Source: Mangrovibacillus cuniculi (GTDB lineage Bacteria; Bacillota; Bacilli; Bacillales; R1DC41). Taken from it: 64,000 nt of DNA. The notes beneath the pieces were generated by a model, which saw nothing but the letters and a program-made list of their open reading frames with translations, had not been told where the DNA came from and ran no database searches. The first letter of the stretch is position 1. Every line of letters begins with the position of its first letter. The position numbers and the translations under genes are program-made. Below are positions 3,546 through 59,756 of this stretch, in pieces. Where the stretch lies: positions 1,911,277-1,975,276 of the forward strand of contig NZ_CP049742.1 of NCBI RefSeq assembly GCF_015482585.1. Direction: 5' to 3'.

Positions 3546-3782
3546 TTGCTTAGTGTCCTCACATTAAGGATACTCAGTTAAGTACGGGCCACTTCTGCAA
3601 CTGGCTTTGGTTGGGTTTGGTTGCTTAGTGATCATTACATTAAGGATACTCAGTTAAGGGCAGGCCACTTCTGCAACTGGCTTTGGTTGGGTTTGGTTGC
3701 TTAGTGATCATTACATTAAGGATACTCAGTTAAGGGCAGGCCACGTCACGTGGCCAACACTGAGTTGTTACTTCACGTAACA
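3546..3782. repeat. tandem ~76-bp repeat ending in a terminator-linked palindrome
   Basis: A unit starting TTGCTTAGTG and running through ACTCAGTTAAG, a GGCCAC motif and CTGGCTTTGGTTGGGTTTGG recurs at 3546, 3621 and 3697 (spacings 75 and 76 bp). Copies 2 and 3 are almost identical. The third unit ends in the full palindrome: GGCCACGTCACGTGGCC, then ACTGAGT pairing with ACTCAGT, then GTTACTTCACGTAAC. That palindrome abuts the tyrS T-box terminator. Read in the tyrS direction, this is 5' untranslated sequence between terminator and start codon. See the related copies at 17658, 27901 and 50936. Confidence 0.85.
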
Positions 3783-4018
3783 AAAAACGCCCCCACAATA
3801 AATGCAGGGACGCTTGAAAGCGCGGTACCACCCAGCTTAAAACTTTAAAAAGTTTTCGCTTTAAACCTGTAACGAAGGTTAAACGTTAGTTCACGTTAGC
3901 AAACTAATGCTCCAGGGTGTAATTCAATATAAACGAATGGACGATTCGCAGCTACCATCGTCTTTCTTAACAGGGTCGTTTATATTTACTTAGCCTTTCT
4001 ACGCTCGATATAAAAGTT
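3782..4018 (-). promoter_or_regulatory. T-box riboswitch (tyrosine) upstream of tyrS
   Basis: Read on the minus strand, the leader contains the hallmark T-box sequence GGGTGGTACCGCG (3821-3833), which pairs with the uncharged tRNA acceptor end in the antiterminator. It is followed by a terminator hairpin and six T (3782-3812). A candidate Tyr specifier codon TAC lies at 3919-3921 in the context GAATTACACC, the right distance upstream. Uncharged tRNA-Tyr would stabilise the antiterminator and raise tyrS expression. The specifier assignment is inference from position; the T-box core is directly visible. Confidence 0.92.
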
Positions 4019-13700: not shown

Positions 13701-13848
13701 AAGTGACTGCACAGGGATTTCCGCTGCAGGGGGACGCTTTCCACGGGGCGGGTTGCTGAGCCTCCTCGTCGCGATAGTACGCGCTCCTGTGGGGTCTCAG
13801 TAACCCACCTTTCCCGTAGGAGTCGCCCCCTTCCGCTACAATCCCAAA
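13701..13848. repeat. GC-rich hairpin repeat, copy 1 (short form, ~148 bp)
   Basis: Starts AAGTGACTGCACAGGGATTTCC and ends CGCTACAATCCCAAA. The two halves are imperfect reverse complements: GGGATTTCCGCT near the left end pairs with CCGCTACAATCCC at the right, and GGGTTGCTGAG pairs with CTCAGTAACCC in the middle, so the whole unit can fold as one long hairpin. It lies in the 530-bp gap between ccpA and aroA, beyond the aroA terminator. Its base composition is far more GC-rich than its surroundings. Confidence 0.9.
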
Positions 13849-13900
13849 TTTTAATTATGTAAAATCACTTTCTGCACTATGATGAATTCAAATATAACGT

Positions 13901-13952
13901 AAAAAAGTACCCTACAGAGAGCACTATTTAAGTGTCTACTCTATAGGGTACA
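13901..13952 (-). terminator. aroA terminator
   Basis: Minus-strand stem GTACCCTATAGAG pairing with CTCTGTAGGGTAC, followed by six T. It lies 66 bp past the aroA stop codon. Confidence 0.85.
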
Positions 13953-20344: not shown

Positions 20345-20618
20345 AAAGAGGCTGGGACAAAACCCGAAAGTGACTGCACTGGGATTTCCGCTGCAGGGGG
20401 ACGCTTTCCACTACGAAAAGCGAAAGGCGCGCGTTCAGCCGCGGCAGAAAAGTTTGGAAGACCGAGGAGGCAGCTCTTCAGCCACCGGAGGGCTTTTGGA
20501 CTTTTCCGAGCGGTTGCGCACCTGCAGCTGGACACGGCATCACTTTGCGTACGCTCCTGTGGGGTCTCAGCTACCCACCTTTCCCGTAGGAGTCGCCCCC
20601 TTCCGCTCCATTCCCAAA
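20345..20618. repeat. GC-rich hairpin repeat, copy 2 (long form, ~270 bp)
   Basis: Begins AGAGGCTGGGACAAAACCC, then GTGACTGCACTGGGATTTCC, and ends CCGCTCCATTCCCAAA. It shares both ends with the short form, but the central GGGGCGGGTTGCTGAGCC segment is replaced by a longer one beginning ACGAAAAGCGAAAGGCGCGC and including GAAGACCGAGGAGGCAGC. It fills the 387-bp gap between the M29 gene and the murC terminator. Open frames across it are repeat artefacts. Confidence 0.9.
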
Positions 20619-24663: not shown

Positions 24664-24802
24664 ATTTTCGGCTCATTTAGGAAGATGTGTAGGAAGTCGC
24701 AGGGAAAGCTAGCTTTCCTAAAAGACTTCCTACACATCTTCCTACCTTTCAGCAAAGCTGAAAGGCGTGTGAAGCAATGCTTCACACGAATGAGCCGAAA
24801 AT
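24664..24802. repeat. 139-bp three-armed palindromic element
   Basis: Closing stem ATTTTCGGCTCATT (24664-24677) pairs perfectly with 24789-24802. Inside are three abutting arms. Arm 1 (24679-24743) has a 20-bp stem, AGGAAGATGTGTAGGAAGTC with its complement, capped by the perfect palindrome GGAAAGCTAGCTTTCC. Arm 2 (24745-24765) is CCTTTCAGC/GCTGAAAGG around AAA. Arm 3 (24766-24788) is CGTGTGAAGCA/TGCTTCACACG. It lies in the 323-bp gap between sftA and the end of ytpR. No gene is supported there; frames crossing it are artefacts. No second copy was noticed in the window. Confidence 0.85.
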
Positions 24803-24868
24803 GGTGCAGTCACTCAGCATATAAAAGAAAAAACACCCCAAGAATGGAAGTGTCTTTTCGTCCTAAAC

Positions 24869-31754: not shown

Positions 31755-32026
31755 TTTGGGATTGGAGCGGAAGGGGGCGACTCCTACGGGAAAGGTGGGT
31801 TACTGAGACCCCACAGGAGCGTACGCAAAGTGAGGCCGTGTCCAGCTGCAGGTGCGCAACCGCTCTGAAAAGTCCAAAAGCCCTCCGGTGCCTGAAGAGC
31901 TGCCTCCTCGGTCTTCCAAACTTTTCTGCCGCGGCTGAACGCGCGCCTTTCGCTTTTCGTAGTGGAAAGCGTCCCCCTGCAGCGGAAATCCCTGTGCAGT
32001 CACTTTTGGGTTTTGTCCAAGCCTCT
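31755..32026. repeat. GC-rich hairpin repeat, copy 3 (long form, inverted)
   Basis: Reverse orientation of the long form: begins TTTGGGATTGGAGCGGAAGG and ends GTGCAGTCACTTTTGGG, then TTTTGTCCAAGCCTCTTT. Very similar to copy 2 over its whole length, including the GAAGACCGAGGAGGCAGC inner segment. It abuts the stop codon of trmB (32035). Frames across it on both strands are artefacts. Confidence 0.9.
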
Positions 32027-32034
32027 TTCATTCC

Positions 32035-40916: not shown

Positions 40917-41004
40917 GTAAACACCCCTTTATCTTGTTAGACACATTGTACTGATTTTTTTGGAAGAAGGAAAGCGTTACTCACTGTGTAAAATAGCCAA
41001 ACAA

Positions 41005-41267
41005 AAGAGGCCGGGCCAAAACCCGAAAATGACTGCACAGGGATTTCCGCGGCAGGGGGCTTCGAAAAGCGGAAGGCACGCGTATAGCCGCGGCAGGAAA
41101 CTTTGGAAGACCGAGGAGGCAGCTTTTCAGCCACAACAGGGCTTTCGGAGTTTCCCGAGCGGTTGCGCACCTGCAGCTAGACATGGCATCTCTAAGTTGA
41201 CGCTCCTGTGGGGTCTCAGTAACCCACCTTTCCCGTAGGAGTCGCCCCCTTCCGCTCCAACCCCAAA
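41005..41267. repeat. GC-rich hairpin repeat, copy 5 (long form)
   Basis: Begins AAGAGGCCGGGCCAAAACCC and ends CCGCTCCAACCCCAAA, with the long-form interior (GAAGACCGAGGAGGCAGC, GAGCGGTTGCGCACCTGCAG). Shortened by about 12 bp near the left end compared with copy 2. It lies in the 472-bp gap upstream of pepV and downstream of the M48 gene terminator. Confidence 0.9.
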
Positions 41268-50861: not shown

Positions 50862-50935
50862 TGTTATTCCTCCTAGTGATTTAGTTATAAAGATGTAAGG
50901 TTTAGGGATGAGATATTTGTTATAGGTAAACATTC

Positions 50936-51083
50936 ATTAATGAGACTCAGTTAAGTACGGGCCACATCACTGTGTGCATCCGAATTTGCTTGGCTCGTTT
51001 GCATAGTTACCTCAAATTAATGATACTCGGTTAAGTACAGGCCACATCACGTGGCCAACACCGAGTTGTTACTTCACGTAACA
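50936..51083. repeat. terminator-linked palindrome with partial tandem copy
   Basis: A full copy at 51016-51083 (ATTAATGATACTCGGTTAAG, GGCCACATCACGTGGCC, ACCGAGT, GTTACTTCACGTAAC) abuts the leuS T-box terminator. A partial copy of its far end (TTAATGAGACTCAGTTAAG ... GGCCACATCAC) lies about 80 bp away at 50936-50970. The arrangement mirrors the tyrS leader at 3546-3782. Confidence 0.85.
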
Positions 51084-51335
51084 AAAAACGCCACTCATCC
51101 CTAAATAAAATAGGGACGAGAGGCGTTTTCTCCCGCGGTACCACCCACATTAGTGCACAACTGCACTCGCTTCGTTACTCCTTAACGCGGAAAACGGTCT
51201 ACCCTACTGTAAGTTCAGGTAAACATCTCAAAGGCGAGTTCATACATTCCGCTGTTGACTTGCACCAACCGTCAACTCTCTGCATTAGGAAGAGGTACTA
51301 CTACTCCTTTTCACCGATCAAATCTATTATGACAT
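51083..51335 (-). promoter_or_regulatory. T-box riboswitch (leucine) upstream of leuS
   Basis: Minus-strand leader with T-box core GGGTGGTACCGCG (51134-51146), a terminator (51083-51129; stem AAACGCCTCTCGTCCCTA with its complement and six T) and a stem I region. The specifier loop GAACTCGCC contains the Leu codon CTC at 51236-51238. A possible promoter with -10 CATAAT is near 51330 (TTCAAA about 18 bp further up). Antitermination by uncharged tRNA-Leu should raise leuS-ytwF expression. This leader fills the 509-bp gap with the adjoining repeat. Confidence 0.93.
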
Positions 51336-54806: not shown

Positions 54807-54973
54807 AGAGTCTTGGACAAATCCTGAAAGTGACTGCAATGGGATTTCCACTGCAGGGGGACGCTTTCCACGGGGCGGGTTGCTGAGCCTCCTCGTCGCT
54901 GAAGAACGCTCCTGCGGGCTCTCAGTAACCCACCTTTCCCGTAGGAGTCGCCCCCTTCCGCTCCAATCCCAAA
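54807..54973. repeat. GC-rich hairpin repeat, copy 6 (short form)
   Basis: AGTCTTGGACAAATCC leads into GTGACTGCAATGGGATTTCC and the short-form interior GGGGCGGGTTGCTGAGCC, ending CCGCTCCAATCCCAAAG. About 95 bp further, past the terminator, TTTTGTCCAAACCTCT (55070) is an inverted match to the GGACAAA leader, so the larger unit may include the terminator. Confidence 0.9.
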
Positions 54974-55027
54974 GTTATATTCTGTAAATTTATAATTCTG
55001 CAATATTATAAATTTAGATCCAACGTC

Positions 55028-55066
55028 AAAAAGGTACATTCGTTTTTTTCGAAATGTACCTTTTTT
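55028..55066. terminator. bidirectional terminator between ytqB and desR
   Basis: AAAAAGGTACATT pairs with AATGTACCTTTTT (loop CGTTTTTTTCGA), T-run both ways; 20 bp from the desR stop. Confidence 0.88.
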
Positions 55067-57971: not shown

Positions 57972-58070
57972 ATCACTAGCCATTATTAGCAGATACTAAG
58001 ATTTTTATATTCTTATCCATATAGAAGAAACTATTTTGCTCTCTTTTCAAACTCAGAAAAATTACAATAA

Positions 58071-58161
58071 ACCGAAAGTGACTGCACAGGGATTTCCGCT
58101 CCAGGGGGACGCGTTCCACGGGGCGGGTTGCTGAGCCTCCTCGTCGCGTAAGATCGCGCTC
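58071..58161. repeat. GC-rich hairpin repeat, copy 7, left part
   Basis: ACCGAAAGTGACTGCACAGGG through GGGGCGGGTTGCTGAGCC to CGCGCTC. The short-form repeat is interrupted here by the IS element; it resumes at 59593. The last three bases CTC are the left copy of the target duplication. Confidence 0.92.
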
Positions 58162-59592: not shown

Positions 59593-59657
59593 CTCCTGTG
59601 GGGTCTCAGTAACCCACCTTTCCCGTAGGAGTCGCCCCCTTCCGCTCCAATCCCAAA
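59593..59657. repeat. GC-rich hairpin repeat, copy 7, right part
   Basis: CTCCTGTGGGGTCTCAGTAA to CCGCTCCAATCCCAAAG, the remainder of the short-form repeat split by the IS. It starts with the right CTC target duplicate. Confidence 0.92.
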
Positions 59658-59723
59658 GTTTAATTTAACGAAAGCAGTATTTCTGCAGTTTTAAAAAGTA
59701 AATTACCTTTAAACATTATCAAC

Positions 59724-59756
59724 AAAGAGGTACATTCGTTTTGAATGTACCTCTTT
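59724..59756. terminator. terminator of the flavin monooxygenase gene
   Basis: AAAGAGGTACATTC pairs with GAATGTACCTCTTT around a 5-nt loop; 7 bp past the gene's stop on minus. Same GGTACATT core as other terminators here. Confidence 0.85.

Follow-up and report, generated by a model that had tools for sequence, protein, structure and literature searches.

In the genome of Mangrovibacillus cuniculi, a three-armed palindrome of 139 bp lies between ytpR and sftA. What kind of sequence pairs almost every one of its bases, and what keeps it paired? The window analysed here, 64,000 nucleotides long, encodes both neighbours on the - strand; domain matches identify them as a tRNA-binding protein (ytpR) and an FtsK/SpoIIIE protein (sftA). 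The palindrome is probably an old, end-eroded copy of a non-autonomous, MITE-type element that is widespread in Bacillales, with arms homogenised by DNA template switching.

The structure comprises a closing stem and three arms, which meet at a junction with zero unpaired bases (Table 1). The initial annotation had described a four-way-junction design too regular to be chance. This description is borne out: the RNA folding energy is -98.5 kcal/mol (z = -13.6), and none of 200 shuffled sequences is equally stable. The stems lie at the positions first given, except that arm 1 has 21 bp rather than 20.

Table 1. Parts of the element and its immediate surroundings (window coordinates).
Feature	Positions	Strand	Remarks
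Closing stem, 5' side	24664-24677	+	ATTTTCGGCTCATT; 14 bp, 100% paired with the 3' side; identical to the inner portion of the extended terminal repeat of the family
Closing stem, 3' side	24789-24802	+	AATGAGCCGAAAAT
Arm 1, 5' side	24678-24698	+	21 bp, 100% paired with the 3' side; hypervariable among copies
Arm 1, palindromic cap	24703-24718	+	16-bp palindrome GGAAAGCTAGCTTTCC
Arm 1, 3' side	24724-24744	+	
Arm 2 hairpin	24745-24765	+	CCTTTCAGC aaa GCTGAAAGG; 9 bp (24745-24753 with 24757-24765)
Arm 3 hairpin	24766-24788	+	CGTGTGAAGCA a TGCTTCACACG; 11 bp (24766-24776 with 24778-24788)
Remnant flank GGTGCAGTCACT	24803-24814	+	probable eroded right end of the element; also present at c2 and c3, and at c4 on the opposite side
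Terminator-like hairpin and T-tract, 3' of ytpR	24827-24859	-	neighbour of the element, not part of it

The palindrome has company. A genome-wide search for further copies, suggested at the outset and made with the 158-bp region, found seven more, giving a family of eight in this genome. All are intergenic, measure 139-142 bp between the outer stem ends, and lie between co-directional genes (eight of eight). They adjoin ytpR/sftA, polC/rimP, mreB/mreC, atpA/atpG, ileS/lspA, hprK, rpoE, and one further pair, as named by reading the protein sequences. Among these copies the sequence is similar in the outer 14-bp stem and in arms 2 and 3; arm 1 is almost wholly different, yet complementary. Overall, pairing extends to 96.8% of cells, and two-sided changes occur at 23 of 54 pairs; neither value is reached by any of 500 shuffles.

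The ends of the family point to its origin. A complete copy is about 195 bp long: terminal inverted repeats that begin GGCTNTGTTA bound it, the target is duplicated over 8 bp, and the core measures 139-146 bp. Among 28 copies listed, from G044 and other genomes, the terminal repeats lie mostly 23 nt to the left and 29-31 nt to the right of the core, and the duplication is exact in 11 copies outside M. cuniculi. Target duplications of 8 bp are typical of the IS1595 family. Moreover, IS1595 transposase fragments occur near the same terminal motif in two genomes, G104 and G018 (NF033547; E = 4.7e-17 and 7e-10). These fragments are degraded, with Pfam matches below the curated cut-off; the G018 genome also contains an IS1/IS1595-type zinc-binding remnant inside an element of about 725 bp with ends of the GGCTNTGTTA type. 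An intact autonomous partner was found in none of nine genomes searched. Together, the terminal repeats, target duplications, and transposase fragments mark the family as MITE-type and probably mobilised by an IS1595-type transposase, which would have acted on the terminal repeats.

The copies in M. cuniculi are more worn. One of them, c6, retains both ends, the right one nearer (20 nt), with seven of eight bases of its target duplication matching; most of the others are without recognisable ends. A search of the M. cuniculi genome for an IS1595 transposase gave no match to the IS1595 DDE domain. On these two grounds the family looks immobile there. In the window copy, neither terminal repeat nor target duplication is recognisable, so its insertion is presumed from the family: it has only a short remnant, GTGCAGTCAC, on the right, shared with c2 and c3. 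In c4 the same remnant is on the left, which would suit an inversion of the whole core.

Several known repeats resemble the element in part. RUP, NEMIS, bcr1, ERIC/YPAL, Nezha, and EFAR (listed in PMC3733652) are likewise short, non-coding, intergenic, and multi-copy, and share terminal inverted repeats, target duplication, and presumed mobilisation in trans. What sets the present family apart is a core of four helices that is paired almost throughout, one arm being hypervariable and the loops present in both orientations. Among intergenic stem-loop repeats of Bacillus genomes (bcr1 of the Bacillus cereus group, Bcr1, Bant-1, and Bhal-1; PMC2267715), bcr1 is of similar size at 147-167 bp, whereas Bhal-1 and Bant-1 are units of 72-74 bp (PMC2267715). 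Insertion sequences of the IS1595 family are linked to the element by the transposase fragments beside its terminal motif; unlike them, it has no coding capacity, and no transposase of that family was found in the M. cuniculi genome. Literature on IS1595 MITEs in Bacillus, on cruciform MITEs, and on EFAR yielded no description of this four-stem family.

Covariance models built from the M. cuniculi copies were used to search 399 sampled genomes of the order. The 139-146 bp core was found in 69 of these, spread over 19 of 135 genera; eight candidates were scored per genome, so copy numbers from this survey are lower bounds. A class-wide sample of 400 genomes gave six positives, all from the same order, and plasmid and phage collections gave no match to the element. 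Counting both strands, matches reach 64 in the G097 genome and 47 in G104. Shorter matches of about 75-90 bp also exist, including some of about 90 bp in G097; one of them (L086, 1501-1574) lacks arm 1 and consists of just the closing stem with arms 2 and 3. The sftA loci of 30 relatives yielded no family copy, and the other seven M. cuniculi copies adjoin unrelated genes, so a particular connection to sftA, whose proximity the initial annotation had noted without evidence of a link, is unsupported. That annotation had also set absence from close relatives, with no trace of insertion, against the element. The absence fits a lineage-specific insertion, given that family members elsewhere have terminal repeats and target duplications.

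Strong covariation is seen throughout the family. Across 87 copies, 96.5% of cells pair, and two-sided changes affect 49 of 54 pairs (none of 500 shuffles does as well), which amply answers the call in the initial annotation for a covariance test. Two-sided changes account for 1045 cells, against about 35 one-sided. Several arm-1 pairs occur as all four Watson-Crick types with zero G-U. When folding is done without allowing G-U, the mismatches in 4081 interior pairs comprise 24 G.T and 28 A.C, equally rare. With the strand set by co-directional flanking genes, and thus the presumed transcribed strand, they number 20 and 16, respectively. G-U makes up 1.3-2.3% of element pairs, compared with 11% in two T-box leaders of the same window. 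The loops add a second pattern: between copies they are identical or reverse complementary about equally often (144 and 127 pairs for arm 1; 169 and 152 for arm 2; 80 and 52 for arm 3), and at least five loops have flipped in situ between orthologues, as defined by the flanks beyond the ends. The initial annotation had left open whether the structure acts as DNA or RNA; wobble counts and loop flips favour DNA, and the stems are likely to be maintained at that level.

From these sequence patterns we infer a template-switch mechanism. The arms would form hairpins in DNA, and the polymerase would switch templates to copy one arm from the other, so that the stems would stay Watson-Crick perfect as arm 1 drifts and a loop would now and then be inverted. 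Template switching between inverted repeats gives both arm homogenisation and spacer inversion (PMC8604942), and has been proposed to maintain perfect stems (PMC8794818). Quasipalindrome template-switch mutation shows the same two effects (PMC7202029, PMC8604942, PMC8794818); it is known from experiments and at scattered sites, whereas here all hairpins of a whole repeat family would be affected, in many genera.

Could a mobile element instead have spread a structured non-coding RNA or RNA leader, whose pairs are maintained by selection on RNA? The very strong covariation would ordinarily say so, as would two further observations: in three genera the core is better conserved than its flanks, and in one genus (g62) an orthologous copy sits in a conserved region upstream of sufC, with promoter-like and terminator-like motifs around it. 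Nevertheless, the reading is improbable. G-U pairs are too scarce beside those of the T-box leaders; G.T is not in excess over A.C on either strand or on the presumed transcribed strand; copies stand in both orientations relative to genes; and loops appear about equally as a sequence or its reverse complement. Nor does Rfam recognise the element: at curated gathering thresholds it has no match in the window or in relatives, where only sub-threshold microRNA-type matches fall on hairpins. (For the g62 locus, an RNA model extended to a promoter and a terminator was dropped, as it amounted to suggestive motifs only. On the sense strand of sufC, 17 A.C and 2 G.T were counted there, most of them repeats of a few shared changes, and these wobble counts lend no support to a sense-strand RNA.) An intrinsic, possibly bidirectional terminator of ytpR or sftA is far less credible still, to the point of being nearly negligible. 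Such very stable hairpins between two co-directional genes do invite the idea, but, as the initial annotation had recognised in judging this no ordinary terminator, a T-tract follows the closing stem on neither strand. Furthermore, one of the other M. cuniculi copies separates atpA from atpG, and a terminator there would interrupt the operon. The companion claim that no other terminator is present was wrong: ytpR has a terminator-like hairpin and T-tract of its own, which is probably its terminator, although this is a motif match of which the scan expects 0.6 by chance.

Template switching by itself does not explain why some orthologous cores are more conserved than their flanks. Four genera (g62, g39, g20, and g86) each keep one syntenic copy across species: upstream of sufC in g62 (matches in 18 of 21 species, with synteny checked in six); between ileS and lspA in g39 (matches in 7 of 12 species, some at other places); between an alcohol dehydrogenase gene and pgi in g20; and upstream of nuoA in g86. 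Core identity, compared with the two 80-nt flanks, is 0.90 versus 0.79 and 0.73 in g62; 0.88 versus 0.68 and 0.80 in g39; and 0.96 versus 0.83 and 0.73 in g20. The excess in these three genera (0.88-0.96 over 0.68-0.83) makes selection on the core possible in some lineages. Old copies might then be host DNA elements, retained for an extruded four-way DNA junction near promoters that relieves supercoiling, insulates, or offers a site to a structure-specific protein. We consider this unlikely, if less so than an RNA. The retention of copies beside sufC, lspA, pgi, and nuoA speaks for it, as does a mismatch pattern that agrees with DNA pairing. Copies between convergent genes are also rare, with 54 of 77 classified copies between co-directional genes, 19 between divergent, and 4 between convergent ones, by a crude ORF call and as counts that stand without a null expectation. 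Against it, neighbour genes differ from genus to genus, and many genomes have no element. In g86, moreover, the core (0.84) is no more conserved than its flanks (0.85 and 0.81). We know of no protein or phenotype associated with the four-stem element. Greater conservation than the surroundings has also been reported for inverted repeats in proteobacteria generally (PMC8604942). A narrower version is a shade more doubtful: that upstream of housekeeping genes (suf, lspA, pgi, and others) the host has adopted old copies as four-way DNA junctions, selection keeping the extruded junction rather than the sequence or an RNA, and template switching keeping that junction perfect.

As a MITE-type family with arms probably homogenised in DNA, these copies form a large natural data set in which strong covariation, usually taken as proof of RNA function, coincides with marks of template switching in DNA, in that the arms are perfect, wobble intermediates almost absent, and loops turned into their reverse complement. 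The family can thus serve RNA-discovery pipelines as a control, and in it the correction of arms and the inversion of spacers can be measured directly in bacteria. The long-kept copies beside suf, lspA, and pgi are deletion targets for asking whether a DNA cruciform helps its host.

Two of the conserved loci have further features. The M. cuniculi copy c7 (L070) and the g39 copies (L177-L180) occupy the same ileS-lspA gap in the same orientation, with arms 1 and 3 that differ strongly; this may reflect a shared old insertion or a target preference. Near the copy upstream of sufC (L200-L216), another conserved hairpin, CGCC[AT]TTCAGCT..AGCTGAA[AT]GGCG, in which paired changes occur, resembles arm 2 and is situated some 100-200 nt right of the element.

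The window contains other repeats as well. A second interspersed family, G+C-rich, about 270 bp long, and 85-97% identical, is present at 20345-20618, 31755-32028, and 40999-41267, with related pieces near 13701-13907, 54828-55033, 58064-58161, and 59593-59756. Its opening part includes GTGACTGCAC, a ten-base sequence found also in the flanks of the window palindrome and of c2, c3, and c4. Beside each of the two T-box leaders (- strand; 3714-4010 and 51015-51323), 22-27 nt away on the opposite strand, is a match to Bacillaceae-1 RNA, and the two regions are partly alike (3633-3791 and 50931-51092, 79%).
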